DNA of 64,000 nucleotides from Arbacia lixula (taxonomy: Eukaryota; Echinodermata; Echinoidea; Arbacioida; Arbaciidae), in assembly GCA_963669155.1 (NCBI GenBank), contig OZ022596.1:13412703-13476702 (forward strand), written 5' to 3'. Below the pieces are notes generated by a model, which was not told where the DNA came from, did no database searches, and saw only the letters and a program-made list of their open reading frames with translations. The translations under genes and the position numbers were made by a program. Positions 6,192 to 55,374 of this stretch are shown here, in pieces. Numbering within the stretch: position 1 is the stretch's first letter; each line of letters opens with the position of its first letter.

Positions 6192-7302
6192 TACTTCTAC
6201 TACTACTTCTACTACTACTTCTTCTACTACTACTTCTAGTAGTACTACTACAACTACTATTATTAGTTTTACTTCTACTATTGCCCCTTGTACTTCTCTA
6301 AAATATAAATCTAAATACATGTACTGGAGATACATTCCTTTCACTACTGCTTGTAAATACACACACATATACTACTACCTCTAATTTTCAAAAGAGGTAT
6401 GTGATTAAGGTTACTTTGAACAGTTTCACCATTCAGCAATGATACGAAATAAAGTGAAATGAGAATAACACACATGCGTTCCTTCTGTCCTTACATTTCT
6501 CAGTTATCGACTCGCTCCGGAACACACTTTCCCTGCAGGACATGAGGATTGTATGACAGCGACTCGATACTTCATTAATCACGCACACGACTTTGACGTC
6601 GACCCACAACGCATTGGCATAGGTGGAGACAGCGCAGGTGGTCACCTTTCCGCCTCCGTAGCCCAATCTGTGCACGACGACCCCTCCGTCCACGACCTCA
6701 AGCTCCAAGTCCTCGTCTACCCGTCCATGCAGAAAATCGACCTCAACACCCCCTCCTATCAGAAGGCCTCCGCGGACTTCGGCAACGGCGGCATCCTGCC
6801 TTTGTGGCTTGTTGCTACCTTCACGAGCCTAGACAAATATGGCCGACTCGACCACGAGTTTTTCACGGAAATCGTGAAAAACAACCACACGTCATCCACA
6901 TTCAAGATGTCATCGGTGGAATACGCGTACGTTAACCACGCTCAGCTGCCGGACACGTTTCGCGATCCTAAATATTATACTACGCACAACAACGTGCGCA
7001 CCGGAAACGACGCGCTCTGGGCGCGCTTGTCTAGTCAAATGCTGGATGCGCGCAGCGCTCCGCTCATGAGACGTGATCTAACCGGGCTACCGCCTGCTTT
7101 TATACTGACGTGTGGATTCGATCCGCTGCGTGATGATGGCGTGTTCTACAAGAATCGTCTGGAGAACGCGAGCGTTCCCGTCACGTGGTCTCACTACGAG
7201 TCAGGTTTCCATGGCATCTTTCAAATGCAGGGAAAATATGGATTCAAAATAGCAGTTACCATGCTTGATGATATCATAAACTTCCTTAAAGAGCACCTAT
7301 GA
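2950..7302 (+). CDS. AADAC-like: Arylacetamide deacetylase-like serine hydrolase (4 exons)
   Basis: Exons are 2950-3096, 4999-5245, 5818-5881 and 6504-7302. All junctions are GT-AG with consistent phases (0, 1, 2), giving 418 residues; human AADAC has 399. The first ATG has A at -3 and opens a hydrophobic anchor at residues 6-22, as in the ER-lumenal type II AADAC/NCEH1 family. The oxyanion motif HGGG is at 122-125 and the nucleophile elbow GDSAGG has Ser196. Asp359 (in FDPLRDDG) and His389 (in GFHG) complete the triad, with the same 30-residue Asp-His gap as the human enzyme. YRLAPEH spans the exon 3/4 junction. The family hydrolyses acyl esters and amides of lipids and xenobiotics; the substrate here is unknown. 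No frame damage is seen. Introns 1 and 3 are full of microsatellites. Confidence 0.92.
3374..3527. repeat. Three poly-G tracts in esterase intron 1
   Basis: Runs of about 15-17 G occur at 3374-3388, 3459-3475 and 3512-3527, within 155 bp. They lie on the coding strand and so would also be present in the pre-mRNA, with G-quadruplex potential. Confidence 0.8.
4578..4803. repeat. (GA)n microsatellites in esterase intron 1
   Basis: Imperfect GA tracts occur at about 4578-4632 and 4780-4803, separated by a short poly-G run near 4642. Confidence 0.8.
6055..6262. repeat. (CTA)n trinucleotide repeat in esterase intron 3
   Basis: About 200 bp of CTA units with CTT interruptions and a short inverted AGT patch near 6123-6135, which can pair with the flanking ACT units. 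Confidence 0.85.
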
Positions 7303-8235: not shown

Positions 8236-11200
8236 AAATTCAAAATTCAATTCAAAATGATTTTATTTTTCAAATCTTTAAAAAAATACATAATGTACAA
8301 TATAAATACAAGATAGAAATCCATAATCGATAAGATTCATTGATAAGGAAAAAAGGAAACAAGCAGAAAGCAAAGCTTGTAAGTAACGTTGTTCCCTTTT
8401 TCATAAATATATATATAGACATTTGATATGGATAATGAAAATTAATAGTTAATAAAACACAAAGCAATACAAAAGTAAAACAATAACAATCAAACTAGGG
8501 GAGCAACCACGAGGGGGGGGGGGGGGGGGTGCAGAATAAAATGAGTACATGTAGTTAAGCAAGTAGTTTAGTGATTATATCCGGATAGTAGATTAAGTTT
8601 CATTTTATATTTGAATGAACTGAGACTATTGCACGTTGAAATGGTATTGTTTAGAGAGTTCCATATTCTAGGTCCCTGATGTCTAATTAATTTTAACGAC
8701 TTTTCATTTAGTGCTTTAGAGTAATGCAGTTTTGAACTAGATCGGGTATCATAAGAATGTACATGCATATTAAATTGGAAAAACGAAGAAATGTTACGGG
8801 GTAATATTGCACTTTTATTTTTAAACATAATTAGGGCAATTTGATAAATATGTATGTCAAATACATTGAGTGTTTTCAGTCTGAAAAATAATGGTTGAGT
8901 GTGGGCCAAAAAGTGAGACGATGTACAAATTCTTAAAGCTTTTTTTTGAAGTTTTAATATGGGGTCCAATTTAGTCGAGCCTGTGGACGCCCAAGTGGTA
9001 TTACAATATTGAAGATACGGTAAAATCAGTGAATTATATAGCAAAAATAATTGTTTTTCAGGTAAGACAGGTCGTAATTTTATCAATATTCCTATACATT
9101 TAGATATTTTGTTGCAAATTTCAGATCTATGTTTATTAAAATTGATTTGATCATCGAGGGTAATGCCAAGGAACTTAACAAAAAGTAAAGCAAGTGCCAT
9201 TCATTATAATATTCACAGCATTTAAGTTTTGTAAAATGTTTTGATTTTTTGAAAAGTATACACAATTTGTTTTATCGCAATTTACAATACGTTCATTTGC
9301 TTTGAACCAGTCATTGATTTTTCAAGTTCATAATTAGTGGTATCTATTAAATTCAAAAGATTATAATCAGATGCAAGAATGGTGGTGTCGTCGGCAAATA
9401 ATATCATTTCAAAAAAACTTGATACATTGCATAAATCATTTATATATAATAAAAAAATCAATGGGCCTAAAATTGAACCTTGAGGAATTCCTGAAGTTAT
9501 ATTTAAAAAGGAGGAAGTATGATTATTATAATAGGTACATTGGGTACGTTTTGTTAGATAACTGCGAAACCATTGTAATTGAATACCCCTAATACCAAAT
9601 CTACTCAATTTATACAACAAAATGTCATGATTAATCAAGTCAAATGCCTTTGACAAATCTAAAAATATTCCAAATGTGTGGAGACCCTTATCCATTTTTC
9701 CGATTAATCGATCATGTAAATCAATAACTGCAAAATCACATGAAAAGTTGGGTCTAAAACCATACTGACAGTCGTTTAATAAAGAGTATTGATTAAGGTG
9801 GTTAAAAAGCCTTAAGTGAACTAATTTTTCCAATATTTTCGAAAAGCATGGTAACAAAGATATAGGTCTATAATTGGAAAGTAAATAAGGGTCCCCTTTC
9901 TTAAAGACAGGAATGATTTTACTAATTTTAAGATTTGTTGGGACATTACCAGTACTCATTGATAAATTAAAGATATATGATAAAGGTATGGCAATGTAAT
10001 GAATTATTTTTTTAATAATTTTACAGCTAATTTCATCAATGCCAGTACTGGAGCTATTTTTAAGGTTTTTGACAATATTTATCAATTCAGTTTCGTTTGT
10101 TGGATTAAATTGAATTGAGGGACAGCATTGATCAGAAAGGTAAAATGAAAAGTGCTTAGAGGAAGTTTCAGATTTATTCTCTTTTTGTAAATTAATAGCA
10201 ATATTTGCAAAATAAGTATTAAATTCTTCTGAAATGCTTTGAGGGTTAGTTAATTTAATTCCATTCTTCAAAAAATATGATGGATCCTTCTTTTTTTTAT
10301 GCTTTTTTAATAAATCATTAATAATCTGCCATGTCTTTATCATATTGTTCTTATTTGTCTCAAATAAATAAACATAGTATTGACGTCGGGCATTTCTTAA
10401 GACTGTGTTTAAATTGTTTCTGTATTTCTTATAACTATGTTCAATATTTTCATTTGAGGAATTTTTACAGAATCTTTTATATAATTTTTCTTTTTTGTGA
10501 ATACATTTTAGCAATGATCTGGTTATCCAAGGTTTTCTGGGAATAAACTTGTTTCTCTTTTTTCTTAATACAAAGTGCTTGTCATACAGCCGTTTAAACT
10601 TATCTAAGAAAGAATTATATGCATTATCTGTTGTAGATATTGAAAGTATTTCACTCCAGTCAGTGATGGATAAATCCTGTTTGAATGTGTTAATAGTATA
10701 ATCATTGATTTTTCTATAATAGTTGTTATTCAATTTTGAAGCATAATCATTATTAATTTCATATTGTAAATTGGTTGTCATCAAAAAAATAGGTAAGTGA
10801 TCAGTTATGTCACTGTAAAATATGCCTGGTTGAAATAAAGATGAACATACATTGGTAAAAATATTATCGATTAAAGTTATAGAGGACTTGGAAATTCTAG
10901 TAGGTTTATCAATCACTGGCTGGAATGAGTTGTTATATATAACATTGATAAAGTCATCAAAACATTTTAAAGAGGATTGTTGCAATAAATTGATATTGAT
11001 ATCACCCATGATATATACATCTTTGTTTTCTCTTTGTATTTTTTCAAGGCATTCATTGAAATGTACAGTAAATTTATAAATGGCTTGTTTAGGATCTCTG
11101 TAAATGACACCAATAATTATATTTTTCTTCAAAGGAATTTTGATTTCAACAAAAAGGGATTCACATAGGTCAGAGGGTAAACATATATCTGATCGAATAG

Positions 11201-11735
11201 AGACTTCAAAATATTCATGAATATATAAAGCGACTCCTCCACCTCGGCTTTTGGTTCTGTCTGTATGATAGAAAGAATAACCATCAATATCAAATAAAAG
11301 GGGGGAATTACTATGGATCCATGTTTCTGTTAGGCCTATAATTGGGAAATTTGCTGTTAGCTCGTTTAAGAAATTAAATATGGCATCTTGGTTTTTGTTT
11401 AAGCTCCTTGAGTTAAAGTGAATGAGATTAAATTTATTGTTATAGTTATTAAAAGACTTATTAAATTCTTTGGTTAACCAATATTTGCAATCTGTAGTAT
11501 ATCTAAAAAAGTTTTCATCAGGGTCAACATCATTAAAAATAGAATCATGATTACATGTATCAGATGTGTCCAAGGGACATTCAGAATTTAGTGCATTAAT
11601 ATCAGTTGTTATACTACTTGGGATGTTTTTTTTTTAACTCATGCTGCAGGTCAGTATTGCTTATGGATTGGAATGGAAAAATATCAGCTAAACTGAAATC
11701 AGAATTTTCACTCATGTTACAGGAAAAAAGACATG
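8236..11735 (-). mobile_element. CR1/Jockey-like non-LTR retrotransposon, decayed
   Basis: The element reads on the minus strand. Its 3' end is near 8236, where an AATTTTGAATT-type simple tail occurs, and the 5' region extends past the RT reading frame to about 11.7 kb. The 3'UTR holds an 18-base G run (plus strand, about 8512-8529). Endonuclease and reverse transcriptase regions are recognisable (see the coding entry). No target duplication could be found, and the 5' boundary is uncertain. Confidence 0.8.
8568..11573 (-). pseudogene. LINE endonuclease-reverse transcriptase with two frameshifts
   Basis: Codons run in one frame from 11573 to 9282, then continue in other frames to 8568. The N-terminal half is an apurinic-like endonuclease (HFNSRSLNKN, GLTETW, MGDININ, SDITDHLPIF). 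The second half is a reverse transcriptase (NYRPISLLP, FLDLSKAFD, SGIPQGSILGPLIFLLYIND, FADDTT). The first break is a missing base in the A-run after LEK near 9330; the second is near 9190. The last part (LGITLDDQINF to the stop at 8568) is the usual LINE thumb/C-terminal region. Both breaks make this copy inactive as read. The clade is judged from motifs only. Confidence 0.85.
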
Positions 11736-16004: not shown

Positions 16005-19000
16005 TTACATAGACACAATGAGACGATCCGGCGTCGTTTTCACGCGAGTGGAACGCCGAAATGGGGTTGCCTCCTTAGAGGCAGCGGGCACGGGTTCAGA
16101 AACATCTTCGGTGCGTGTTGCTGCCTGTGCTGAAGATTGGTTTCCCTCTTGGTCAGACAATAGTTGTCTTTCAGTTTGTAAAGTCACTGAGGGATTCACA
16201 GGTGCTGTTGGTGTTGGCACCTGTGCATGATTGGAGTCAGGAACCGTAACCGTCGATTCTGCTCTCATCTGGTCGATGTGTCGCTTCCAAACCCTACCAT
16301 CCTCCAGGACGACTATATAGGACTTTGGCGCTCGTCGTTCCGCGACTGTCCCTGACCACCACGTTTCTTCCTGCCGGAAGTCCTTCACCAAGACGCGATC
16401 TCCAGGGAAGAACTCGCGAAGACCATGCTGCTTGTCATGATGAAGTTTCTGATCGCTCTGTTTGTTGATGACCTTCTCCTCAGTACTAGGCCGTACCAAG
16501 CTGAGACGTGTGCGTAACTCTCGGCCAAGAAACAAACTCGCTGGCGTCTGTCCTGTTGTTGCGTGCTTGGTTGTGCGATAGGCCAGGAGAAAACTGTCCA
16601 AACACTGCTGAAGACTGCGACCTTGAGCCTTGCTTGCACTCAGCGACCTCTTAAAGGACTGTACCATCCTTTCTGCTGCACCGTTGCTTGCTGCATGATA
16701 TGGTGCTACCTTCACATGCTTCACGCCGTTTCTCTTGAGAAAGTCCTCGAATTCCTCACTGATGAATTGAGGGCCGTTGTCACTGACTACTTGCAATGGG
16801 ACTCCATACTTGCTGAACAAGTCTCGCAATGCTGTAATGGTTGCCGTTGACGTTGTACTGGTCATCAGAACGACTTCTGGCCACTTGGAGTAAGCATCTG
16901 TGATCACCAGATAGTCCTTCTTGTCCTTCTGGGCGTAGTCTATGTGGATGCGTGTCCATGGTGCATGTGGCCATACCCATGGCATCAATGGTGCCACTGT
17001 AGGAACATGTCGTGTCTGCTGGCATGTTGTGCATGACTTCACTATCTGCTCAATGTCATGGTCGATATTAGGCCACCAAACATGACTGCGGGCAACCTCC
17101 TTCATGCGAACCATTCCCTGATGCGCCGTATGCAACTCCTCAAGGATGTCCTTCTGTAGATGAGGAGGAACGATGACTCTGTATCCCCACAAAAGACAAT
17201 CTTGTTCCGTGCTTAACTCATCCTTCCTTCTGATGAATGGTTTAAGTCTCTCATCCTGTTGGTCCTCCTTCCACATTCCTGTTTTCACCATGTGAAGGAC
17301 CCTTGACAGTACAGGATCTGTTCTCGTCTGGTTCCGGATGTCCTTGCTGGTTACCGGAAGGCTCTCAATGTGATAGACCGCAATGTTGTAGATGTCATCA
17401 TCTCCTTGCGAAGTCTCTGGTAAGGGAAGCCTTGATAGTGCATCTGCCACCACATTCTGGTTGCCTGGGATGTACTTCAGCTCATAATCAAAAGCTGATA
17501 AGATGATCGCCCATCGTTGCAACCTCTGTGCGGCTAAGGTAGGAATCGCCGTCTTTGGACCTAGAATTCTCTCCAACGGCTTGTGATCCGTCTGTATGGT
17601 GAACTTCCTCCCATAAAGGTACGTGCGAAAGCGTTGGAGACCAAACATGATGGCGAGTGCCTCCTTATCCAACTGTGCATAGCCCTTCTCATGCTGGTTC
17701 AAGCTCCTGGAGGCGTATGCTACTGGCGTCTTGCCGCCCTTGTCGTCTACGTGAGAGATAACGGCTCCTACTCCGTACGGTGAGGCGTCCACGCTCAGCT
17801 CTAGTTCCTGCTCAGGATCATAGTGTGTTAGCAGTCTGTCTGTACTGATCACGTTCTTTACAGCTGTGAATGCATCGTCACACTTCTTGTCCCATGACCA
17901 AGGCTTGGATCCCAGCAGTTCATTCAAAGGATGGGCCATCGTAGAAAGATTCGGAATGAACTGGGCATGATAGTTCACCATTCCCAACCAAGAGCGAAGT
18001 TCTGTGACATTCGTGGGCGCCGGAGCATTTCGAACTGCCTCCACCTTGTCCTTCGTTGGTTGAATTCCCTTGGATGACAACCTCCGTCCGAAGTAGACCA
18101 CACTGTCTTGTATGAATGAGCACTTCTCCCTCTTCACTCTCAGCCCGAACTTCTGGAAACGTTTGAAGACCTGTTTCAGATTGTTCATGTGCTCTTCGTC
18201 TGTGCTTCCTGTAACAAGAACATCGTCCATGATTGCACATGTACCGTCAAGTCCAGATATGACCTGCTCAATGAACTTCTGCCATATCGCTGGGCTGGAT
18301 GATATCCCAAAAGGTAGTCTTGTGTAGCGGAAAAGACCCCGATGGGTGTTGATCGTCACCAGTTCCTGTGATGCTTCGTCCAACATCATCTGCTGATAAG
18401 CACACTTCAGATCAATCTTGGAGAACTTCTTTCCTCCCCCCAAGTTTGAGAAGACTTGTTCTGGAGTAGGAATAGGGTACTGCTCGCAATGAATCTGCTG
18501 ATTAACCGTCACCTTGTAATCTCCGCAAAGGCGTACCTTTCCATCTGCCTTGGGTATGCATACCAATGGTGTAGCCCATTCACTGTAATCTACAGGGTAG
18601 ATAATCTTGTCTTCCTGCATGCGATTGAGTTCTTTCTTCACTGCCGGACGTAAAGCAAAAGGAACGTTGCGTGCCTTGCAGAACTTGGGTCGAGCTCCCT
18701 CCTTCAGATGAAGCTTGGCTGGCGGGCCTTTTGCTGTCCCAAGTCCTTCCTCGAAAACGTTGGCGAATTCCTGTTGCAGAACCAGTCCAACATCTACGTC
18801 AGCTCTAATTGAATACTGGGGTTCAGGTATCAATGTCTTCCAGTCTAGCTTCAGCTTCATCAGCCATGACCGTCCCAGGAGAGGCGGAGCCCGTTTGGTA
18901 GTCTTGACAACCACCAATGCCAACGTCATAGTCTGGTTCATGTACTTGACTCTCACATCGATTTCTCCTGCTAGCTCCAGCTGCGTGCCTGCGTACGTAT

Positions 19001-20093
19001 GCAGTGGACGTCTGACTGCATGCAGCTTCAAATGCTTGAAGTGTTTCTCGTAGTCCTCCTGGTTGATGATAGACACAGCGGCTCCAGTGTCTAATTCCAT
19101 GTCAAGTTCAACTCCCTCAACCTTCATGGGTACCATAATTGCTGGATTGGATCCCCCATGACCTATGTTGAAGACTGAATCAAGGAAGTCAACATTGTTT
19201 CTACCGTCGTAAGCTCCGTCATCGTCGTCTTCCTCCACTTGCCTCACAGATCCACGACCACCATCTCGCCGACGTGGAAAATGTGGTTTTCCTCTTTCGT
19301 TACCACCCGACTTGCACTCAGACTTCAAATGTCCCTTTTTCTGACACTTGAAACACACTGCATCTTTGTACTTGCATTGCTGCGGTGAGTGGTTAGACAG
19401 GCCACATCGGAAACATCTGAAATTAGGCCGCTTACTTGTACTTGAAGTAGATGGACCTTGCTTGGAGTTGAAGTGGGGTTCAGCATCCTTCCGTCTTGTG
19501 TGTGTCACCTTGTTTACCCTCTCTCCGGCTCCCTTGCCACCGGACATATCTCTGGTATTCATGATATTAGTCGATGCTGCTTCTTCTGCCAAAGCTGATT
19601 CTACCGCTTCTTTGAAAGTGTAGTTCTTGGTCAAAAGCTTCTTCTGCGTAGAGCTCGAGTGCAGACCCGCAATGAAGCGATCCCGTAGAGCTTCCTCCAG
19701 TGCTCCACCCGTAAATTCACATGAAGAGGCAAGCTTTTTCAAATGTGAGACATAGCTGGATATCGTTTGTCCCTGTGCCTGTTTGGCGTTGTGAAACTTG
19801 AACCTTTCAGACACTACCAGACGCTTTGGGCGAAAATGCCCCCTCAAAGTCTCACACAGTTTAACGTACGTTGTGTCACTTGGTTTGTTTGGGAATGACA
19901 AGTCTCTTATCGTTTTGTATGTGTCACTACCAATACTGCTCAGGAGAATAGCTTTGCGTTTACCTTCGTGCTTGGCTTCAGTTGTGATATCCAAAGCAAT
20001 GAAATATTGGTCAAGCCTGTCCAAATATGCTTCGATATCTCCGTCTTTGTCGAACTCCTCAAATAGTACTGACCGTGATGATGCTGAAGCCAT
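16005..20093 (-). CDS. Ty3/gypsy Gag-Pol polyprotein, 1362 residues, intact
   Basis: Gag fills residues 1-265, with two CCHC zinc knuckles at 227-240 and 247-260. The aspartic protease motif LDTGAA is at 334-339. The reverse transcriptase spans roughly 480-660, with the catalytic IMDD at 621-624. RNase H follows at about 765-890 (Asp769, Glu811, Asp836, Asp884). The integrase has an HHCC zinc finger (His988/His991 region, Cys1021, Cys1024) and a DDE core (Asp1052, VSDNGPQF with Asp1105, NGAAER with Glu1141). The tail ends with RRSTRVK, and there is no chromodomain. Gag and Pol share one frame with no frameshift or stop. The start codon lies about 180 bp after the primer site. All catalytic residues I can place are present. 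Confidence 0.95.
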   Translation of the reverse strand: MASASSRSVLFEEFDKDGDIEAYLDRLDQYFIALDITTEAKHEGKRKAILLSSIGSDTYKTIRDLSFPNKPSDTTYVKLCETLRGHFRPKRLVVSERFKFHNAKQAQGQTISSYVSHLKKLASSCEFTGGALEEALRDRFIAGLHSSSTQKKLLTKNYTFKEAVESALAEEAASTNIMNTRDMSGGKGAGERVNKVTHTRRKDAEPHFNSKQGPSTSSTSKRPNFRCFRCGLSNHSPQQCKYKDAVCFKCQKKGHLKSECKSGGNERGKPHFPRRRDGGRGSVRQVEEDDDDGAYDGRNNVDFLDSVFNIGHGGSNPAIMVPMKVEGVELDMELDTGAAVSIINQEDYEKHFKHLKLHAVRRPLHTYAGTQLELAGEIDVRVKYMNQTMTLALVVVKTTKRAPPLLGRSWLMKLKLDWKTLIPEPQYSIRADVDVGLVLQQEFANVFEEGLGTAKGPPAKLHLKEGARPKFCKARNVPFALRPAVKKELNRMQEDKIIYPVDYSEWATPLVCIPKADGKVRLCGDYKVTVNQQIHCEQYPIPTPEQVFSNLGGGKKFSKIDLKCAYQQMMLDEASQELVTINTHRGLFRYTRLPFGISSSPAIWQKFIEQVISGLDGTCAIMDDVLVTGSTDEEHMNNLKQVFKRFQKFGLRVKREKCSFIQDSVVYFGRRLSSKGIQPTKDKVEAVRNAPAPTNVTELRSWLGMVNYHAQFIPNLSTMAHPLNELLGSKPWSWDKKCDDAFTAVKNVISTDRLLTHYDPEQELELSVDASPYGVGAVISHVDDKGGKTPVAYASRSLNQHEKGYAQLDKEALAIMFGLQRFRTYLYGRKFTIQTDHKPLERILGPKTAIPTLAAQRLQRWAIILSAFDYELKYIPGNQNVVADALSRLPLPETSQGDDDIYNIAVYHIESLPVTSKDIRNQTRTDPVLSRVLHMVKTGMWKEDQQDERLKPFIRRKDELSTEQDCLLWGYRVIVPPHLQKDILEELHTAHQGMVRMKEVARSHVWWPNIDHDIEQIVKSCTTCQQTRHVPTVAPLMPWVWPHAPWTRIHIDYAQKDKKDYLVITDAYSKWPEVVLMTSTTSTATITALRDLFSKYGVPLQVVSDNGPQFISEEFEDFLKRNGVKHVKVAPYHAASNGAAERMVQSFKRSLSASKAQGRSLQQCLDSFLLAYRTTKHATTGQTPASLFLGRELRTRLSLVRPSTEEKVINKQSDQKLHHDKQHGLREFFPGDRVLVKDFRQEETWWSGTVAERRAPKSYIVVLEDGRVWKRHIDQMRAESTVTVPDSNHAQVPTPTAPVNPSVTLQTERQLLSDQEGNQSSAQAATRTEDVSEPVPAASKEATPFRRSTRVKTTPDRLIVSM

Positions 20094-20272
20094 CGTGACT
20101 CGTCTCCGTGCAGGCGTCGTACCCGTGAACGTGTCCGAAATACATGCATCAGTTATAACCGTGAATCGAGTACGTGGGACTACCAGTCAATCCTCGCATG
20201 AAATGAACCTATAAGTCGTCGTGTTTCTCCCTGAAATTTCTCGTTTTTCAAGCTGGTACATTATCCTAGACG

Positions 20273-22214: not shown

Positions 22215-25200
22215 TTAATGCGTCAGACGCACTACTGCGATGGCAGCCGCAAAGACGGTCACAATGCTCATGCTGACGTTGATGGCGCTATTGCAGTTGT
22301 CCGTTGTACAGCATCCGACACACGTCTCGATGGAAAACAGCGACCCACATGCCGCCGTGCAATCTGAATCCCTGCAGCTACGGGTGATAGAGGTGATGGT
22401 ACCGGCAGTGGTGACGGTTGTTTTCTATTTAATGGAGAAGGAGTGGAGAAAAAGTTGAAGCGTACGTCACACAACTTGAAACAACACAAATCTTAGGCAA
22501 CTAGAAGTCACCGCAGACGCCACGATTCAAAAGTCGTAAGCGCGTATGACTAGAAATGTGACGTCTTCTTTACTTTACGCACAGAGCACTCGGTATTTTT
22601 GTTGCGATTAAAATTGTGACGAGCCATACCGAGAAAAGATAAAGAAAAGTTCTCGAACCTACATTTTGAGATTTTGATAAATTTCGATTTGGCACTTTCT
22701 AAGCTTCAATTTGATATAAAGTTTGTCTCATAAAGGTGATGTAACCCAGAATAATTAATGTTTTCCCAAGATCAATTTTGAATACTCTAAAAATAAAATC
22801 CTGCGAACGCGCTATCCATTGTTTGACCAAGGAGGTATAAGAAATGGAGTCGAAACGAGGAGTAATTTATTTCTACACCAGTCGCGTTCATTGATAGCAC
22901 AATAGAATATTTGACGGTTTGGTTCTTTCATCCAGTGACGACAGCCGACAAATATGCAAAACAAATTTGGGTTGCATTTCGAGGCATATATATTTTGTAT
23001 GCGCAGATTTCAGAACCAGTTCATGTACTGAAGTGTATGTGCAGTAGTAGTACATCTTACGATGCGATTCTGTGAATTTCAAATTATATTGTTGCTTCGT
23101 TTTTGTGATAAATTGAGAATACTGTTTAAAACATGTCAGAGAAATGCCTACATATCGCACATTTGGCAATCATATTTCATTACAAATATCTTGTAAATCA
23201 TGTATTGAGTGTTCAACCGTCCATGGTAGTGCATGTGCAGTAGTAGTACATCTTGTGATGCGATTCTGTGAATTTCAGATTATCATTCTATAGGATTATA
23301 GAAAAACAGAGAACTGCCTCTATATCGCACATTAGTCAATCATATTTCCTTACAAATATCTTGTAAATCGTCTGAGTGTTTCTACAATTTTATCAAAATT
23401 CTCCTGCTCTCCCCCCAAACTAATTCACAGTTTGTGTATCGAGATCAGCTATAAACTCCCAGCGAAGGTTGAACGGTTGACATATTTCTCAAAACAGATT
23501 TCTTTTGTCATTCAGAGGAGGGAACTGCCTCATGAGAAATACAGCATACTGTTTAAAACACCTGAAAGTCTTGATTTTTTTTTTATAAAGCGGCGGTCAT
23601 GAAAGAATAAAGGAAATCTATCCGAACACAGTCCATCCATGATAGGTCCACGAAACCTTTCCCTACTACGGCTTTTCACGAAAAGGGGTTACTAGGAGGC
23701 GGGGCCTCATTATGGATCGCTAAGTGCAGGTGCGGAGCCGAGAAAATCTAACTTAGCAAACCCGAAAATACAACTCTCATAAATAAAACTCTCATAAATG
23801 TTCATATTTCTATCAACTAGCTTCTCACGAGAATGTGCCAACGTGTAGGAGAAATATCAGTGAAGAATATGAACTAATAATATTTGTCCATGAATTGTTA
23901 TGCTTTTTTACATCAAGCGCGATTTCTGGGGATAGACCGGTTTACTAACATATTCAAATGTTATGCTTAACATTTTAACAAAGGTTGCCCCTGACAACCG
24001 GAAAGCTTGTCCGAGGTTTTCCCGACAGTGCATCAACTTATGTATGCTAAGTAGATTCCAAGTACTGAAATACCATTGTTAGGTATAGGTTAACGGAATA
24101 ACTCGTTACTAGGCCCAGAGGGAAGAAACATCCGTAAATTTGACTACATTGGTAAACCGGTCTATTGAGAAATGCGGAGTTATGACTGGTTTGACCAAGC
24201 GCATCACAATTTTGTTTAGAAAATACCTGATTAGACCCCAAACATACTTCGGCATTGTTCAATACAAGGCTTTGCATTGCTATCGAGTACACAGCTGACA
24301 TTCACCTAATAACGTACATGTACATTATTTTGTCTGATTGAGTGGTTAAAGTACAACCAGGGAGGTGTTAGGAAGGAGAAGAAACTCGAGCATAATACAT
24401 TCAAGCATCTGTATGGTTTAAAAGCGTGCTCATGAATGTTAAACGCATTCCATAATCATGACAATGCTTTGATGTTCCATGTGCCGAGCCGACATTTAAC
24501 TGTTGTCAACTAGAAAAATAAATTTCTTTAATTGCCCATTTGTCTCTAGAAGCTTTGTTTTTGACAAATTTGTTTGCAAATTATAAGAAAGTTAAGTACA
24601 GATTATGACAGATCCTTTACTCTGCTTTTGTTTCGAAAAGTAATGAGGAATCATTAAAAAAAATCGGATATTTGTATTACCTACAAAATTGACCTGAATA
24701 GCACCTGTTGAGAAGACCATAACTTTTCAGCGGCTTGGCACATGGGTTCAAAGAGAGAAAGTTGTTCATATCCTTCCATAACACATCCCTGGTACAACCC
24801 ATTCGAGTCAACAGATATGAATTGAGACTGTGACTTAAGATAAGAAGTATAAATAGTAATAAAACTTACGTCAGGTGAAAGAGCTCATATTTCTACACAA
24901 GACAAACGTTTCTATATTGTGAAATTGTGTTATAATCGAAAAAGAATTAAATTATTCCTTTATATTCAGATAGGCAACACCATGAACACGTTGGAAGTAC
25001 TGAAAGCAGCCCTTTAACTTAAAGCGAATTGACTAATTACACCATGGACCTATCATGGATGGACTGCGCTCGGATAGACTTCCTTTAATCTATGATGACC
25101 GCCGCCGCATAAAAAATCAAGACATTCAGGTGCTGTATTTCTAATTAGGCAGTGCCTTCCTCTGAATAACAACCGTTCAGCCTTCGCTGGGAGTTAAAAG

Positions 25201-27747: not shown

Positions 27748-28419
27748 ACGGGTGCGTTAGGAAGGAGAAATAACTCGAGCATAATATATTCAAATATCTG
27801 TATGGATACTAAAGCGTGATAATGAATTTCCAAAGCATTCCACAATTACTACAATACTTTGATGTCCCATGCGCAGCATTAAGTGCTGTCAACTTGGAAA
27901 GAAATGTCTTTAATTCCCTGTTTTGTTTCTCGAAGCTGTGTTTCATGTACTCGGTTTTCTTCTATATAATTTATTGTTGAGTGATGCACAAACGGAGATA
28001 TAAGATGATTTTCTCTTCTTGCACAATTAACACATTTCTTCACTTTCCGGATTTTTCCTGAAATGTGGGATTCAATCATTATCAAAACTGTATCTTAAGC
28101 TCTGTATTTTCATTAACTGATTTTGCGTGCATTTGCGTGCAGCTGAGATATTTAACTAGAAAAAAAAACTATTTATTTTTGTTCGCTGATATCTCTTTTC
28201 CTCACAAAAGTATTGATGCAATCCAACAGAACTGGGCAAGTGAAATAAGACGCTACATTTATTTTGTTCTCTCTAAGAAACCGTTGCTACGCAATCCTGT
28301 TCATTATTGTTAAAACACCTGAAATGCACATGCTGAGACCGCATAATCTTTCGGCGGTGCCACGCATGGGTTCAAAGAAAGAAAGTTGCTTCATATCCTT
28401 TCATAACACATCCCCTGTG
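27748..28419. mobile_element. hAT-type MITE, near full-length (672 bp)
   Basis: Ends ACGGGTGCGTTAGGAAGGA and TCCTTTCATAACACATCCCCTG, with a perfect 8-bp duplication TGGAGACC at 27740-27747 and 28420-28427. It serves as an empty site for the insertion at 32103 (single CGGCG at 28352-28356). Confidence 0.85.
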
Positions 28420-31735: not shown

Positions 31736-32037
31736 CAGGAATGTGTTATGGAAGGATATGAAACAACTTTCTTTCTTTGAACCCATGTATCACGCCGCTG
31801 AAAAGCTATATGTTCTCAACAGGTGCTGCTCAGGTGTTTGAACAATTATGGACATGATTGTGTGGCAACGGCTTCTCAGAGAGAGCAAAAGAAATGTACA
31901 GTCTCATTTCGCCTGTCCCGTTCTGTCAATGGCATTTATACTTCCATGAGCATAAGTATCAGCAAACATAAACTATTTTTTTAAATAAAATATCTCCGCT
32001 GCACACAAACGCACACAGACACCGTCAATGATAATAC
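31736..32037. mobile_element. hAT-type MITE, truncated copy
   Basis: It starts CAGGAATGTGTTATGGAAGGATATG and follows the family sequence for about 300 bp. It stops at AATGATAATAC, where the next copy begins, so the second probably landed in it and the remainder was lost. Confidence 0.7.
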
Positions 32038-32102
32038 CAGGGATGTGCTATGAAAGGATATGAAACAACTTTCTTTCTTTGAACCCATGGGTGGCACCGC
32101 CG

Positions 32103-33785
32103 CACAGTGGGCCAGGCGTGAGCAAAAGTGCGCCAAAATAGGGGTTTGGTCATCAAAACAATATTTATTTTTTTCACAATCTAAGCAAAGATTACAACCT
32201 CTGGCATACCTCTAAACAATATTTCTTCTTGAAATTGATTTTAAGTGGGTCATTTTTCTTTAAAACCATCGGATATTTGGATGATTAGGTAAATCGTGTA
32301 TAAAATGTATTACTGCGTTTTTTTGAAGTTTTTTGCTAAAGAATCATTTGATCTCCATAATATTGCATTTGCCTGTTGTAGAAAACTTATTTCACATCAC
32401 TATACAGTTTAGAGGCAAACAAATGTTCCTCCCGGAAGTAAGTCATGATGCAACACAAAATAATGACAGGAAAATGGCATATATTTTTTCATGCTCAAAA
32501 GTGGTCAACATTCCCGTCGATTCCCGCGCTACAAATATCATGATTGCCTTTATTACAGTTCATGCTTTACAATGGTACCAAATTTAGCTGCAAGTTTTTG
32601 CAAGTTTTTGAGTAATTCCCATTTTCCACCCGCATGTTCGTACTTTTTTTCGCTTAAATCTGCCATGCGATACTGAGCGCGCACTGTGTACAGTACATAC
32701 GCAGGCAACTCACACACACAACATGTACGCGTTTGTACACGAATACCTATATCACAAGCTTCACAGTCTACTTGCATTTTTCTTAGCTGATGAGACATAC
32801 GTCCGAGAATAACTCGTATTGATATAGAAACATATTGATTGCATTTTGATATTCAGTGGGAGCACAACATTATACAGTTTAGAGGCAAAAAAGTATGCCT
32901 CCCGGAAGTAAGTCATGATGCAACCAAAAATAATGGCAGGAAAATGGCATATATTTTTTCATGCTCAAAAGTGGTCAACATTCCCGTCGATTCCCGCGCT
33001 AACAATATCATGATTGCCTTTATTACAGTTCATGCTTTACAATGGTACCAAAGCTGTTGCACATTTTTGAGTAATACCCATTTTCCACCCGCATGTTCGT
33101 CCTTTTCTGCCATGCGATACTGAGCGCGCACTGTGTACAGATCATATGCAGGCAAATCACACACACACATCATGTGCGCGTTTTTACACGAATACCGTAT
33201 ATCACAAGCTTCACAGTCTCCTTGCATTTTTCTTAGCTGATGAGACATGAAAGAGAGAGAAATAGAGAAAGAGGGGATGAGAGACAAAGAGAGAGAGGAG
33301 AGAGAGAGAGAGAGAGAAGGGGTATCAAGAGTCTGATCACTCTAAATCCCAACGTTTGAACAAATATTTTAAAGAAATACTTAATGATTTCGAATTATTG
33401 TAACACCATAATTATGACGTTTCTAAATGTATTCTCACAGCCAATCACATAGTGGTATCTAAATGACGTCATATGTGTTTAAAAATGTTTCCAATGGATT
33501 CCACGTGTCTGTTCACCCTTATTCCTAACCATTCAACATAAATCTATTTAAAAGACAGAGTGATCACGTATTAGCCTGCAAATCATTTGTAACATTTTAT
33601 TTTACATTGTATTTTCACAACCAATCAGAAAGCGGTATTTTAAAGACGTCATATGTGTTTGAAACTATTTCCATTGGATTCCGCGGGTCTGATTTCCATA
33701 CAAACCAACATTTAAACATAAATTTTAGAAAAATATTGGTGATTGCGAGTTTTGGCGCACTTTGAAACCATTCTGGCCCACTGTG
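32103..33785. mobile_element. Non-autonomous Transib/RAG-like transposon with CACAGTG ends
   Basis: Both ends begin CACAGTGGGCCAG, then nine non-matching bases, then AAAGTGCGCCAAAA. The flanks are a perfect 5-bp duplication CGCCG (32098-32102 and 33786-33790). Two other copies of the host MITE keep a single CGCCG at the same place (28352-28356 and 53719-53723), which proves the boundaries. CACAGTG is the exact RAG heptamer. 23 bases later both ends read CCAAAA, the nonamer position. GC-rich 5-bp duplications and CACWRTG termini are established hallmarks of Transib and RAG-like elements. No RAG1-like coding region is present. The interior is a ~470-bp-offset duplication (about 32398-32803 and 32868-33252), a (GA)n tract, and a second duplicated pair near 33420 and 33600. 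Confidence 0.75.
32398..33252 (+). repeat. Tandem duplication inside the CACAGTG element
   Basis: Two units start about 470 bp apart and share long identical stretches (for example around 32488-32560 and 32968-33040), with small indels. The similar open frames in the two units follow from the duplication. Confidence 0.85.
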
Positions 33786-34444
33786 CGCCGAAGAAAAAGG
33801 TCTTCTCAGCATGTGCTTTTCAGGTGTTTTAATAATAACGAACAGGATTGCGTAGCAACGGTTTCTCAGATAGAACAAAAGAAATGTAGAGTCTTATTTC
33901 GCTTGTCCAGTTCTGTTCGATTGCATCAATATAAGGAAAAGAGATATCAGCGAACAAAAATAAACAGTTTTTTCTACTAAAATATCTCAGTTGCACGCAA
34001 ATGCACGCAAACTCTGTTAATGAAAATAAACAGCTTAAGATATAATTTTCATAATGATTGAATCCCACATTTGCGGAAATCTGCGGAAATTGAAGAAATT
34101 TGTTAAATTTTGTAAGTAAGATTATTATGTTATATCTCCGTTTGTGCATCATTCAATAATTATTTAAAAGAAAAGTGAGTACAGGATCTTAAGTGGTGTT
34201 GCCCGTAACTTCCTTGAAAATTGCACAAAAATCTGATAAGAAACATAGCTTCCAGAGACAAAACACTTAATTAAAGATATTGCTTTCCAAGTTGACAGCA
34301 TCTAAATGTCGGTGCCGCGCATGGGACATCAAAGCATTGTAGTGATTGTAGAATGCTTTTGACATTCATTAGCACGCTTAAGTATCCATAAAAATGTTTG
34401 AATATATTATGCTCGAGTTGCTTCTCCTTCCTAACACATCCCTG

Positions 34445-46928: not shown

Positions 46929-47360
46929 TTATTTTCAAATTTTCAAATTCTCACATAATCAATTTTCACTTTCAAACGCATACAGTTGGCAGCAAAATTA
47001 TTCAACCCCCCTCTCATTTTTGACATTCTGTCACAATGAATAATATTGCAGCAGCAGATTTCTCCTAAACCATTAAGATAGTTAGCATACAGTTAATTAC
47101 TAAAGAATACCGGAGAAAAAAATCAAATTTTACTGCATAGGTCATCTGAAATTGCAATTTGCGCCCAAAAAGCTTGTTGCAAAATTATTCAACCCCCTGT
47201 TTTACACACAGGAAACGAATGCACAAATAATGACAATTTCACAGCCAGTGCATATCTTCTGAGGAGAATGCTGATTTTATTTATCCTCCACCTGAAACTC
47301 GAACCTTTATATGCACAACTAACAAGTTGTAACATTATTCAAGCCAGATGGGTGTGTCTC

Positions 47361-47590
47361 TTAGTATTTTGTGCAGCATCCATTTGGTGCAATGACCTCC
47401 TGCAGACGAGATGAATAGCCTCCCACAAGCTTTTCACAACGCTCCTTGGAGATGTTAGCCCATTCCTCTTGCGCAATGGTCTTAAGGTAATCGATGCATG
47501 TAGGTCTACGTTCTGCAACAGCTTTCTTCAGATCCCACCACAAATTATCTTTTGGGTTTAGGTCTGGAGACTGTGATGGTCACTCAAGGT
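47361..47590 (-). pseudogene. Tc1 transposase C-terminal fragment, left arm
   Basis: Reading leftward: PSQSPDLNP, LWWDLKKAVAERRP, AQEEWANISKERCEKLV, then APNGCCTKY and stop. This is the C-terminal part of a Tc1 DDE transposase (the SPDLNPIEN-LW region holds the third catalytic acid in this family; here IE is KD). A TGA precedes PSQ where Trp is usual. The rest is absent. Confidence 0.85.
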
Positions 47591-47597
47591 GGGCAAG

Positions 47598-47703
47598 AGG
47601 AATGGGCTAACACCCCCAAGGAGCGTTGTGAGAAGCTTGTGAGAGGCTATTCATCTCGTCTGCAGGAGGTCATTGCACCAAATGGATGCTGCACAAAATA
47701 CTA
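47598..47703 (+). pseudogene. Tc1 transposase C-terminal fragment, right arm
   Basis: EEWANTPKERCEKLVRGYSS to APNGCCTKY and stop, on the opposite strand from the left-arm copy and differing at a few residues. It confirms that the element is an inverted duplication of one end. Confidence 0.85.
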
Positions 47704-48150
47704 AGAGACACACCCATCTGGCTTGAATAATGTTACAACTTGTTAGTTGTGCATATAAAGGTTCGAGTTTCAGGTGGAGGATAAATAAAATCAGCGTTCT
47801 CCTCAGAAGATATGCACTGGCTGTGAAATTGTCATTATTTGTGCATTCGTTTCCTGTGTGTAAAACAGGGGGTTGAATAATTTTGCAACATGCTTTTTGG
47901 GCGCAAATTGCAATTTCAGATGACCTAAGCAGTAAAATTTGATTTTTTCTGCGGTATTCTTTACTAATTAACTGTCTGCTAACTATCTTAATGGTTTAGT
48001 AGCAATCTGCTGCTACAATATTATTCATTATGACAGAATGTCAAAAATGAGAGGGGGGTTGAATAATTTTGCTGCCAACTGTAGAGACTATTTGAATGGT
48101 ATTATGCGTCTCTAAGAATTGAATATTATTATTATTATTATTACAGACAA

Positions 48151-50264
48151 TTATTCATTTTATATACAAACCGCTTACACAAGGAAGAGGTAAGACTTAA
48201 CATGCAACTAGACTTTTTTCAAGGAGTCCCCACGCTCCGCATTTAGCACGTACGGTAACGCGTCGGAAATGTCAGTATTGCCACTTGAAAGACTATCAGT
48301 GTACAGATGGTTTATGTGCGCATGCGCGTGGACTTACATATCGCCAGCCGCGAACATTGCTATCGGCATCGCGAATCTGTGTACATGTATACGTACATAG
48401 TACAACATGTACAAGTGTATCGTCGTCTGCTAACAAAGAATCTGACTCAAAGTGGACAATGGAATTTAAATAATGCTCACTGGGTCTTGGGTAATATGGA
48501 TAGACTACTAGTTAATTTGGGTTAATCTTTTCCAAATTCATAATGATTGTGTTCAGGCTTTTTTGGCTACCTATGGGCTTTATATTGGATTAAAATGATT
48601 CAGAAAGTTGTATAATGGGCTCATTCTTAGTTCAAGTTCACGTCGATCAAAATCTATGATTATATTCACATGCACTTATATCCAAGATGAAGAAAGGATC
48701 CAGATGCTATCTTAAAATACATATGTATAGATATGTACTCTTAGTTTGTCTGAGATATTGATGTAATAATTCATTCATTCATTCAATTTAAAAACTTAAT
48801 TGCAGTCACTGCAACATACAGTTTATGAAGTGGCCTACATCAAAAAGAAGTAACAGTTAGCAATATGAATCGATGAAATGCAAAATATTCAGAATGCACT
48901 TAAAAGCAAATTAATAATTATGTTATTATGAGATGAGAGGGGAGGAGAGAGAAAGAGGGGAGAGAATGCAAGTCTTGCGAGGTTCAAGTGCATGTCAGAC
49001 ACCGGAACAGCAGACGGCAAAGCCAAACGCGGTACCGATGGCAACGGTAGTACTACATTGTACTATTAATACACGTGGTGAGAATCGCGGTCGGGCGTCA
49101 GGCATGGATGATCTTAATCAATACAATAATTCATATTTGCCGCAGCGTATCTCACTACTCTTGTACACGGTTGTCTCTGCAAGGCGAAACCGGCAAGGTA
49201 ACTCTTGTACCCGTATGACATATTCTATTGATTTGCACCTCTCGTGTTATTGTTTGACGCTGGCTTTATTGCAACCAGCGGCAGCGGTGGGACTGGTATA
49301 CAGAAAGGAACTATACCGGACCCGGAAACGACACGTAGCACAACAACCATTTCATACATACCATTGTATAGCAATGGTAGACCTACGTCATCTCGCGGGC
49401 GCTTCTTGTACATTAGTCATGATCGTTGTGTGTAAATGATGCGAACTCTTATCACCACAAATATGCGTTTCATTCCTTGCGTAATGCAGAAGAATGAAAA
49501 ATAACGTCCAGGAATATGCGCTCGTCAGCCTAGCGATTAAGGTTCCGGTAAAGCAATAGGCGACGGGAATTCCACTGCGAATAACTTCCGAGTCCAGCCC
49601 GTTGGTCAAATTTCAGCAAAGAACTTTGGAAACTTGGCCGATCATCTGGTACCCATACAGGTCATACTACTACTAAACCACGTATTTACGGTGAGTTTTA
49701 ACAATTTTTCTCTTTCTTTGTAACCAACGTTTCTAGGCTAATTGCGTGGATGTATTGCGTGTATGGACCCAACCACTGTTACCACGGTTAAATCTGGACA
49801 CATGGACTGATCATCTGTTCATCGTTACTGCATGTATTGCTACGTTTCCACTAGATCATGATTCGCATCACAATGGAAACTGTGGCGCGAATCGTGACTT
49901 TACGGTGGTGTACCTATCATATCTTGAGGTCAGTCAATCGGTCAATCGGGTTGATCACAGATAACATTTTGATGGTCCGAGACTCGTGCTATGATCATTA
50001 CAATTTATTGCTATTTTGATTATTGCACCAAATCGTATGGAGGCTCGACCGGTCGCATTAAATCCTGTACCTCTAAATTGTGGGCATCGGGATCAACCTT
50101 GGACACGACCAACCCCACGTATGGTCAGGGTGCACTGCACGATCGTCTACAACCTCTAACGATCTGTAAGCTTATGTTACCATTGCACATGTACAGAAGG
50201 TTTCCACTGTCGTGCGATTATACAAACCCCTTGATCAGGTACGAATGGCCAGCCATGTGGCCGT
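48151..50264. other. No recognised gene
   Basis: The 48930-50260 part has balanced composition and several overlapping frames (for example 48933-49439 plus), none of which I recognise. The frames disagree about which would be coding, and no splice model emerged. Confidence 0.4.
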
Positions 50265-50272
50265 GATCGTAC

Positions 50273-50985
50273 CAGGGATGTGTTATGGAAGGATATGAAG
50301 CAATTTTCTTCCTTTGAACCCATGTGCCAAGCCGCTGAAAAGTTATGTGTTCTCAACAGGTGCTGTTCAGGTGTTTGAACAATTATGAACATGATTGTGT
50401 GGCAACGGCGAGAACAAAAGAAATGTACAGTCTCATTTCGCTTGTCCCGTTCTGTTAATGGCATTAATACTTCCATGAGCATAACAGGTATCAGCAAACG
50501 CAAATAAACAAGTTTTTCAAGTGAAATATCTCTGTTTCACGCAAACACACACAAACGCCGTTAATGATAATACACAGCTTAATATATCATTTTGAGAGTG
50601 GTTGAATTCCCCAAATGCACAAGTTGTCGGAAAGTGAAGAAATTGGTCAATTTTGTAAGTAATACAAATAGCTTTTATGTCCGATTTTTAATGATTCCTC
50701 AATACTTTTCGAAACAAAAGCAGAGTAAAGGATCTGTCATTATCTGCCGTTAACTTCCTTAAAGTTTGCAAACAAATTTGTCAAAAACAAAACGTCTACA
50801 GATAAATGGGAAATTAAAGAAATTTCAGAAATTTTAAAATCAGCTAAATGTCGGCTCGGCACATGGAACATCAAAGCATTGTCATGATTATGGAATTCTT
50901 TTGACATTCATGAGCACGATTTAGAACCCATACAGATGTTTGCATATATTATGCTCGAGTTTCTACTCCTTCGTAACACCTCCCT
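50273..50985. mobile_element. hAT-type MITE, 713 bp, best-preserved copy
   Basis: Starts CAGGGATGTGTTATGGAAGGA and ends CTCCTTCGTAACACCTCCCT. Perfect 8-bp direct repeats GATCGTAC lie at 50265-50272 and 50986-50993. The 8-bp duplication and CAGGG ends are standard hAT traits. No transposase is present. Confidence 0.85.
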
Positions 50986-50993
50986 GATCGTAC

Positions 50994-52639
50994 GTAGCGG
51001 ATTGCATAATGACATACAGCCACGAATAACAGGTAGCAGTAGAAGCGGTCAGACTAGGTTAAAGACAGGGTGTCCCTTTTGCTGGCAAAAAGAAACGTGT
51101 AAAGGCAACGGAAAAAGGAACAAGATACTACAACTTCCCTCGAATTAAAGAAGTGGAGTAAGACTATAAGCGAAATTTGAGCGATCGTTAGATTTTGAGG
51201 AGGTTTTGGGCTGGTCGTCCGAAATCTATAGGCTGGAGACCGGAGACCGCGCTGCTCAAATGAAACATGACCGCGGTGCCCGGCGCATCCCGCACTGATA
51301 GAAGCAATATCTTTATGAATGTAGACTACGGCCGCTACGTTTGAAACGTAAACATCAATGTTTTTCACTTTTACTGGAAAGGTTCGTGAGGCTATGGCTG
51401 TGAAATTTCACACACGTTATTGTTAAGGTAAACTGCTGTTTTCTGCTAAGTTTCATGCATTTTGCAGATGGGACACTCTGTATTTAAGGTTGGAGCACCT
51501 CATCAGAAAGAAGCAGACTTCACAAGCCAGACGCCAGGCCACAGTGTCTGTCATCATCGATTAGGGCGTGACATGTTTGATTTCTTTTCGTTTACACATA
51601 TTCATACTTCCAACATATGTAAATATCAATACTGTGGTGCATGTAGATTCTTTTACCTGGCGAGTTAACCCTTTATTTGTCAGATAAAGTTATTCATTTT
51701 GGTATTTGTCTGCATGACTCATATGGCACAAAAAGTATTAAGTAAAACCATTCATGTTAAGAGTTGCAATGGATGTTTAGGAATATATTGCATTGGGTAT
51801 GTTTGAGCATCTTTTATGTGTTAGGTATACCGAAAGATGAGGGTAAATCCACCTTTCATATTGTACGATGCTAAACGCAACGCACCGAAGTTAGGTAATA
51901 AATTGGGACAGAACCTTGCAATTGTAAATATAAAACATCAATTTAAGCACACATATTTAACTTCTGGTCCAGTTGAGAAGAATTTCTAACATATGGAACC
52001 ATAAGCTACGCATTTTTTTCCTCAAAGGGATAGTCCATTCAGAAGATATGTTGGTTTTAATAAAAGAAGAAACATGAAAGAAACATAATAGTGAAGTTTT
52101 GATTAAAATCAGTCAGGATAAGAGAATTACGTTTATCTTTAATTTTTATTTTGCGATCTCACGCGGGAGATGATTTCCCATATGTACTATTTTTTTTTTG
52201 AATATTCATTTTCTCAATAGGATATGCATCATTTACTTTGTACATTTGATGCATCGTTAGATACATGTTTTTACACCCCTACCTTTATGAAAAAATATAT
52301 TCCTTCATCAAAACAGATTATGAGCAATTTATTGAATCATACAGCATACAACAGGAGCGAGAACATCTCGCACATGACGTCACCGAATTGAAACTTTTTA
52401 AAATCGTAACTTATCTATCATTGACGGTTTTTCGTAAAACCTTTACTAATATGTTTCTTTTATGTGTTTACTTTTATTTAAATGAACTTAATTTCAAGAT
52501 AGACTTTCCCTTTAAAATATGACTAACATAATTTATTTCGTTAGAAGGAATTAGGCGTTCCATCTTAGTTTCAATTAGCCCGTTATGCGCTACACAAAAT
52601 ACTTCTTATTGGGATTTGTGTGCATTTAATACGCAAGAA
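50994..52639. other. No recognised gene
   Basis: 51040-51360 is locally CpG-richer, with a weak zinc-finger-like phrase (see rejected items). The rest is AT-rich. Confidence 0.4.
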
Positions 52640-53659: not shown

Positions 53660-55374
53660 GGGGATATGTTATGGGAGGATATGAAACAATGTTCTTTCTT
53701 TGAGCCCATGCGTGGCACCGCCGAAAAATTATGTGGTCTCAGCATGTACTCTTCACGTGTTTTAACAATAACGAACAGGATTGCCTAGCAACGGTTTCTC
53801 AGAGAGAACAATAGAAATGTAGAGTCTTATTTCGCTTGTCCACTTCTATTAAGTTGCATCAGTACTTTTGTGAGGAAAAGAGATATCAGCGAACAAAATT
53901 TTTTTTAAGTAGAATATCTCAGCTGCAGGCAAATTCACGCAAACTCTGTTATGAAAATAAACAGCTTGATATATAATTTTGATAATGATTGAATCCGACA
54001 TTTCCGGAAATCTCCGGAAAGTGAAGAAATTTGTTAATTATGTAAGTAAGAATATTAATATAATATTGACTGGCTTTGAGGGGGATACGACCTATATTGC
54101 CAGAACTGAATTCATATTGCCCGAGTCGAAGACGAGGGAATTATGGATTCAGTGAGGGCAATATCGGTCGTATCTCCCGGAAGTAAGAGCCTGTTAATAT
54201 TATTACTATTATCCACATCAGACATCTAGAGCGAATAATTCACAATTTCTATAGCTTCCCATTTTTAATACTTACTTACTACCAGTACCAAGAAACTATT
54301 AAGCGCAAAAGTTAAAACATTTTTTGATACAAATTATAGATTTTCTTCAGTTCTACTGTTGCTGCTTTAAACACCACGTTGACATCGATCATTTCTGAAT
54401 GTACTGACTTCAAATGTCGATTGATACCTGCACGAATGCTGTGTAACGATGTAGTCTTAATGAATTCCATCAGCTCGGCGCACTTCCACGTAAAATTAAT
54501 TGGCTATAACACGGATGATAAAGTCTTGATATCTGCAGTTTAAACATCAACATCCAGACGTTTTTCCATAAAATATTCCTTGAATATCGTTATTGCTTGC
54601 AGGGTTGCTTTCTTCGTGTTCTGTGCATCTTTGTTTTATACATCATTAAATTCCTGATCATCGAAAGACGCAAATGTTCTTGCACAGGGCGCTGCCATTT
54701 TGCTTGTTTGTTGACAACACAAATTTTCAAATTTCCCACGCAGCGCCAGCTAAGTCTGGAGGCGATCGCCTGCTCATTTTACCTGTAAACGTATGGGAAA
54801 TGGCACTCGTTCGCGCGCTTATCGCGGAGCTTTGCCTGCCAAGAACGCAATCCCTGTCTGATTGAAAAACTCCCGGATGTTAGACCAGGGACAATACAAG
54901 ACAATATTTCCCGTTTTATTACACGTAAAGTCCATAAGCTTTTGTGAAAGATGGTAATATTGTCAATATTACCATCTTTGCCCCATCTACACTGGAAATG
55001 AGGGGAATATGATTTTGTAAAACCACCGCTCAGATATCTGATACGAATAATAATAATATCTTATATCTCCGTTTGTGAATCATTCGACAGTTCTTTAGAA
55101 GAAAACGAATACAGGATCTTTAGTGATGTTTCCCGTAACTTTCTTAAAAATTAAGAAAAAAAATGTGATAAGAAACACAGTTTCGAGAAACAAAACAGGG
55201 AATTAAAGATAGTGCTTTCCAAGTTGACAGCAGCAAAATGACAGTGCCGCGCATGTGACATCAAAGCATTGCAGTGATTGTGGAATGCTTTTGATATTCA
55301 TTAGCACACTTTAGCATCCATACAGATGTTTGAATATATTATGGTTGAGTCTCCTCCTTCCTAACACATCGCTG
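53660..55374. mobile_element. hAT-type MITE containing a second insertion
   Basis: The family sequence runs 53660 to about 54052 and resumes at about 55060 through CTCCTTCCTAACACATCGCTG. It keeps the single CGCCG (53719-53723) that is duplicated around the CACAGTG element. Confidence 0.75.
54053..55058. mobile_element. Unclassified ~1-kb insertion in the hAT MITE
   Basis: It interrupts the host between GTAAGTAAGA and CTTATATCTCCG. Near its left end is an imperfect palindrome (about 54078-54178; GGGATACGACC..ATATTGCC versus GGGCAATATCGGTCGTATC). Near its right end is a perfect small hairpin, GATGGTAATATT-GTC-AATATTACCATC (54953-54979). Exact ends are obscured by AAT/TAT-rich edges. Confidence 0.5.

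Follow-up and report, generated by a model that had tools for sequence, protein, structure and literature searches.

What interrupts a dispersed repeat at positions 32103-33785 of this stretch of the genome of the sea urchin Arbacia lixula (assembly GCA_963669155.1, contig OZ022596.1, positions 13,412,703 to 13,476,702 of the forward strand), and which group of transposases would have put it there? The stretch was analysed at its full length of 64,000 nucleotides and is here called the window. A preliminary description of this DNA had claimed a non-autonomous element with exact V(D)J-type heptamer ends, mobilised by a Transib or a RAG1L/RAG2L transposase. The interval proves to be an insertion: its inverted ends consist of two paired blocks each, and a 5-bp target duplication flanks it. 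We judge that it is quite probably a non-autonomous member of the Transib superfamily of cut-and-paste DNA transposons, and most likely a narrow-sense Transib with symmetric ends. Its parts are, with the recombination signal sequence abbreviated as RSS:

32103-33785, no strand assigned: non-autonomous transposon, 1683 bp, without a coding match in the element reading frames scanned
32103-32115, plus strand: left terminal block 1, CACAGTGGGCCAG, with the RSS-type heptamer CACAGTG at the tip
32116-32124, plus strand: left 9-nt gap, 1/9 positions in common with the opposite end
32125-32138, plus strand: left inner block 2, AAAGTGCGCCAAAA
32393-32798, plus strand: internal direct repeat, copy 1, 88% identical to copy 2
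32863-33248, plus strand: internal direct repeat, copy 2
33252-33317, plus strand: (AG)n microsatellite within the element
33428-33543, plus strand: shorter internal direct repeat, copy 1, 116 bp, 77% identical to 33608-33723
33608-33723, plus strand: shorter internal direct repeat, copy 2, 116 bp
33750-33763, minus strand: right inner block 2
33764-33772, minus strand: right 9-nt gap
33773-33785, minus strand: right terminal block 1

Read inward from the tips, the two ends are identical at 13/13 positions in the terminal block (positions 1-13), 1/9 in the gap and 14/14 in the inner block (positions 23-36), just as the preliminary description had them; past position 36 the identity is only 4/24. 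All eight mismatches of the first 36 positions thus fall within one 9-nt run (rough p ~8e-6, allowing for 28 runs). Since the scattered decay of a longer repeat rarely leaves a single run of mismatches, each end looks like a pair of constrained blocks on either side of an unconstrained 9-bp gap. In the interior a repeat of about 400 bp is present in two copies (88% identical by self-BLAST), and apart from an AG-rich stretch nothing in the interior recurs elsewhere in the window at an E-value of 1e-3. Pfam scans of 10 of the 18 open reading frames (ORFs) of at least 48 amino acids that overlap the element gave no match near the cut-off (best E-values 0.046 and 0.15), and no recognisable gene was found among the ORFs scanned, in keeping with the earlier claim of a non-autonomous insertion. 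Two internal CACTGTG motifs (32682-32688 and 33129-33135) are one motif doubled by the internal duplication and were taken as chance. A scan of the window against Rfam gave no match.

How the insertion arose can be read from the sequence around it, which contains the following:

32098-32102, plus strand: left target site duplication CGCCG
33786-33790, plus strand: right target site duplication CGCCG
32038-34444, plus strand: host dispersed repeat split by the element, 718 bp from 32039 once the insert and one CGCCG are subtracted (self-BLAST, edges common to other copies)
28352-28414, minus strand: start of a host-repeat copy whose paralogous site is empty and has CGCCG once, at 28356-28352
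53661-53723, plus strand: start of a host-repeat copy whose paralogous site is empty and has CGCCG once, at 53719-53723

CGCCG stands as a direct repeat on both sides of the element, and self-BLAST within the window shows the insert to be absent from all six other host-repeat copies that reach the insertion site. In two of the six (at 28414 on the minus strand and 53661 on the plus strand) the 14 bases GTGGCACCGCCGAA across the site are identical to those of the occupied copy without the insert and one CGCCG; these are the two unoccupied copies that the preliminary description had pointed to. The remaining copies have CGCTG at the site (three of six) or a deletion (one of six), and the copy at 31738, with CGCTG at the site, has an additional CGCCG three bases leftward. 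The two empty sites with a single CGCCG imply an insertion that duplicated exactly 5 bases, and the 5-bp target duplication is therefore well supported. CGCCG differs from its own reverse complement at the middle base alone, and computed inverted-repeat arms take it in (94%); that it lies outside the inverted repeat is decided by the empty sites. These observations also bear on the notion of an artefact of chance or assembly, namely that unrelated sequence came to lie between two host-repeat fragments. The window does abound in repeats and microsatellites, but the 27 bases matched in register at both tips, the direct CGCCG repeat and the six copies without the insert led us to reject this explanation, whose probability we put as negligible.

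The host repeat (32038-34444) and a partial copy of it (31738-32037) are arranged head to tail, and further copies or pieces are found near 24790, 28414, 50273, 53661, 55048 and 58715. The two edges of the host repeat, CAGGGATGTGTTATGGAAGGA on the left and TCCTTCCTAACACATCCCTG on the right, are inverted repeats of each other, which makes it resemble a miniature inverted-repeat transposable element (MITE) itself.

Could the heptamer ends be fortuitous? CACAGTG occurs seven times in the window, against a mean of 7.4 in 100 simulations; this count is close to the simulated level, so the heptamer alone is uninformative and the non-random part is its placement at both tips. The composite pattern CACWRTG..CAYWGTG with equal 5-bp flanks occurs twice in the window, against an average of 0.04 in 100 simulated windows, none of which had more than one. 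The second match, 47032-51546, has the tips CACAATG and CACTGTG, the flanks TCTGT and no matching bases inward of the heptamers; it probably arose by chance, and as it too passes the composite test, the test by itself is no proof.

Which superfamily do the tips and the duplication suggest? The duplication (5 bp, in one copy) is GC-rich: CGCCG conforms to CGNCG, the consensus of Transib duplications, and 5-mers composed only of G and C make up 1.3% of the 5-mers in the window. Both tips begin with CAC and have the heptamer form CACWRTG, the form given in the preliminary description. In a classification of MITEs (PMC9033116, Table 1) a 5-bp duplication is that of Transib, those of CACTA being 2-4 bp and those of hAT 8 bp; the CMCT group, which includes Transib, is described as having mostly CA..TG ends and 2-5-bp duplications (PMC12730594); and ProtoRAG, Transib and vertebrate RAG are all reported to make 5-bp duplications with a GC bias (PMC8289069). 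The echinoid host fits as well, since an echinoderm relative, TransibSU-1_PM, is reported to have 13-bp identical inverted termini and a 5-bp duplication (PMC4411706). Some Transib ends combine a heptamer, a symmetric spacer of 20-22 bp and a nonamer-like tract (PMC8355894). Subgroup I Transibs are all asymmetric, and Subgroup II, the subgroup with the most previously identified sequences, includes both kinds (PMC9435367). The 5-bp GCTCG duplications of Hztransib (PMC1852546) were not used in the verdict.

The element might also be a member of the CMC group, either EnSpm/CACTA or Chapaev, whose duplication happens to be of unusual length, which we consider very unlikely, or, less probably still, one of the hAT5 type, a branch of hAT with 5-bp duplications. 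Chapaev duplications fall within 2-4 bp, and hAT tips usually begin with CAG or TAG, as against the CAC tip found here. EnSpm has also been given CAC..GTG tips (PMC12730594), but the duplications described are 3 bp for EnSpm (PMC12730594) and 2-4 bp for CACTA (PMC9033116), against exactly 5 bp at the empty sites; hAT5 duplications are 5 bp (PMC12730594), the length found here. A hAT reading in which the tip would be CAGTGGG was rejected: the preceding CA is absent from the empty sites and thus belongs to the insert.

The tips further invite comparison with the RSS, whose heptamer consensus is CACAGTG (PMC8289069). As the preliminary description had noted, the heptamer is that of the RSS, and at both ends CCAAAA follows it after 23 bases; the placing there of CCAAAA at the nonamer position holds for the spacing (CCAAAA falls at a spacer of 22-23) and much less for the sequence, the nonamer scores being 5/9 and 6/9 at the two ends and equal at spacers 22 and 23. 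Among 20,000 random pairs 1.1% score as well at spacers of 20-23, and 5% at spacers of 12-31. The nonamer resemblance is thus weak, which is no argument against Transib because the ends of Hztransib also show little or no nonamer similarity (PMC8289069).

The most serious alternative is that the element is moved not by plain Transib but by a RAG1L/RAG2L (TransibSU) transposase of the sea urchin. Its ends would then be those so far lacking for a RAG-like (RAGL) transposon of sea urchins, mobilised by the echinoid RAG1L/RAG2L complex; we regard this as unlikely. The GC-rich 5-bp duplication and the CAC heptamer-like ends, both found here, are common to the two groups. In echinoids the RAG1L/RAG2L genes lie at differing genomic places, from which past transposition was deduced (PMC9885083); the bat star TransibSU-1_PM has 13-bp identical terminal inverted repeats (TIRs), described as resembling known Transib TIRs, and a 5-bp duplication (PMC4411706, cited for this description and not for the letters); non-autonomous RAGL elements are known from oyster and several deuterostomes (PMC7204232); and the RAGL ends of pearl oyster are symmetric (PMC8355894). 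Against this stand both the letters and the spacing of the ends. Protostome RAGL ends have the consensus CACTWMCAAACKTYKBB, whose AAA at positions 8-10 its authors align to an A-rich stretch in the RAGL ends of deuterostomes (PMC7204232). AAA occupies these positions in the pelagophyte RAGL block CACACCCAAACCT too (PMC9435367); the element has GGC there. The end spacings of ProtoRAG (27/31; PMC8289069) and of the pelagophyte RAGL (4/13; PMC9435367) are asymmetric, as opposed to a 9-bp gap at both ends of the element. Moreover, no RAG domain was recovered by Pfam among the window ORFs scanned, and no convergent RAG1L and RAG2L pair lies between the ends among the element ORFs scanned; this absence is not decisive, because it is expected for a non-autonomous copy. 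Judged by its ends, a RAGL origin appears less likely and plain Transib is to be preferred. Hence, of the two sources of mobilisation that the preliminary description had left side by side, the Transib one is favoured by the tips, the GC-rich 5-bp duplication and the empty sites, and the RAGL one is disfavoured by GGC in place of AAA and by the symmetry. Were a RAGL origin nonetheless true, the exact RSS-type heptamer and the symmetric inner blocks would record the substrate once cut by genes that are now immobile.

If the element is instead a passive Transib derivative, as we prefer, a Transib transposase encoded elsewhere in the genome would bind both ends and act in trans. The tip block with the heptamer would be where it cuts, and the inner block would give it another contact some two helix turns further in; the cut would be made before the CAC tips, and strand transfer with a 5-bp stagger would join them to a GC-rich target within the older repeat. 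The interior would be filler, grown in part through internal duplication.

Several points weigh against the Transib assignment. A single copy is in hand, so that the ends and the duplication length rest on one insertion, and the end sequence was placed by published descriptions, not through a library of known Transib ends. As the pair at 47032-51546 illustrates, such heptamer pairs can arise by chance, and the nonamer match is, as said, weak. Pfam found no RAG1 or transposase domain in 106 of the 122 window ORFs of at least 80 amino acids (E-values up to 0.05), nor in a separate set of 10 window ORFs; of the 16 ORFs outside the set of 106, two are covered by the set of 10, and the other 14, which were not scanned, overlap other frames in parts of the window rich in retroelements or repeats. 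For the sea urchin Evechinus, a transcriptome study gives one match to the class Mirage/P/Transib (PMC3898728), and Transib is accordingly not abundant in that sample. Pattern scans with the end blocks, strict and slightly relaxed, over viral and bacterial/archaeal contigs gave zero matches in all four cases, which says little, these being the wrong collections for an animal element and perhaps lacking this genome itself.

What, then, is gained? The element is a real transposon and very probably a non-autonomous one of the Transib superfamily. Elements of this kind are already known, and the added value lies in the sea urchin host. Probably it is an ordinary passive member of a Transib family; if so, it adds one further member to a known family. 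A 2023 paper states that no TIRs were found around sea urchin RAG-like genes (PMC9885083), and the ends described here are of value for this reason: they are a concrete pair usable as a probe for the host Transib, and a substrate for asking if ends of this kind are recognised by the RAG-like proteins of sea urchins.

Both inner blocks also contain GCGCCAAA / TTTGGCGC (32130-32137 and 33751-33758), which we take to be an E2F-type site. TTTGGCGC occurs three times in the window against 1.2 expected, two of the three being the inner blocks, and the wider motif TTTSSCGC eight times against 4.2, both counts being post hoc. A host-factor site in both ends is of possible interest, though it was noticed post hoc.

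Elsewhere in the window, a 1393-amino-acid open frame at 16005-20186 (minus strand) encodes a Ty3-type retroelement polyprotein. Among the best 120 of 123 matches, in a search that scored the 8000 candidates sharing most words, it is 82% identical to a protein of Lytechinus variegatus and to one further protein, the next named match being from a coral (53%); at 82% identity to the L. variegatus protein the retroelement is apparently young. A frame similar to long interspersed nuclear elements, at 9282-11633 (minus strand), has a clear reverse transcriptase match and an endonuclease match below the curated cut-off. The plus strand carries, at 6469-7302, an exon from a gene for an alpha/beta hydrolase similar to arylacetamide deacetylase: its best match is 66%, and the leading named ones among the best 120 of 2121 are Strongylocentrotus purpuratus (63%), Diadema antillarum (59%) and L. 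variegatus (59%), followed by a starfish (48%). The matches of the polyprotein and of this exon place the host among the echinoids, a point that goes beyond the preliminary description.

Set against known systems, the element compares as follows. With the V(D)J RSS it shares a heptamer identical to the consensus and an A-rich tract 23 bp away; it departs from the RSS in its nonamer scores and in the equal spacing of its symmetric ends, on which a reading as a 12/23 RSS pair was rejected, and in being a mobile element that has inserted, where the RSS is a signal of receptor genes. With the TransibSU/RAG1L-RAG2L elements (TransibSU-1_PM of the bat star and lancelet ProtoRAG) it has in common the CAC heptamer-like tips, the 5-bp duplication and, with the bat star element, a 13-bp identical TIR. 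Unlike ProtoRAG, its ends are symmetric and no RAG genes were found; unlike the protostome and pelagophyte RAGL ends, which have AAA at positions 8-10, it has GGC, a comparison into which the bat star letters did not enter. From Transib it differs in that a transposase was not seen in the element, the ends being likened through published descriptions. With Transib and its non-autonomous derivatives it shares the GC-rich 5-bp duplication, the CAC heptamer ends and a two-part organisation of the ends that is symmetric in some members; non-coding members have been reported there as well, such as the Transib MITEs of Helicoverpa (PMC9033116).
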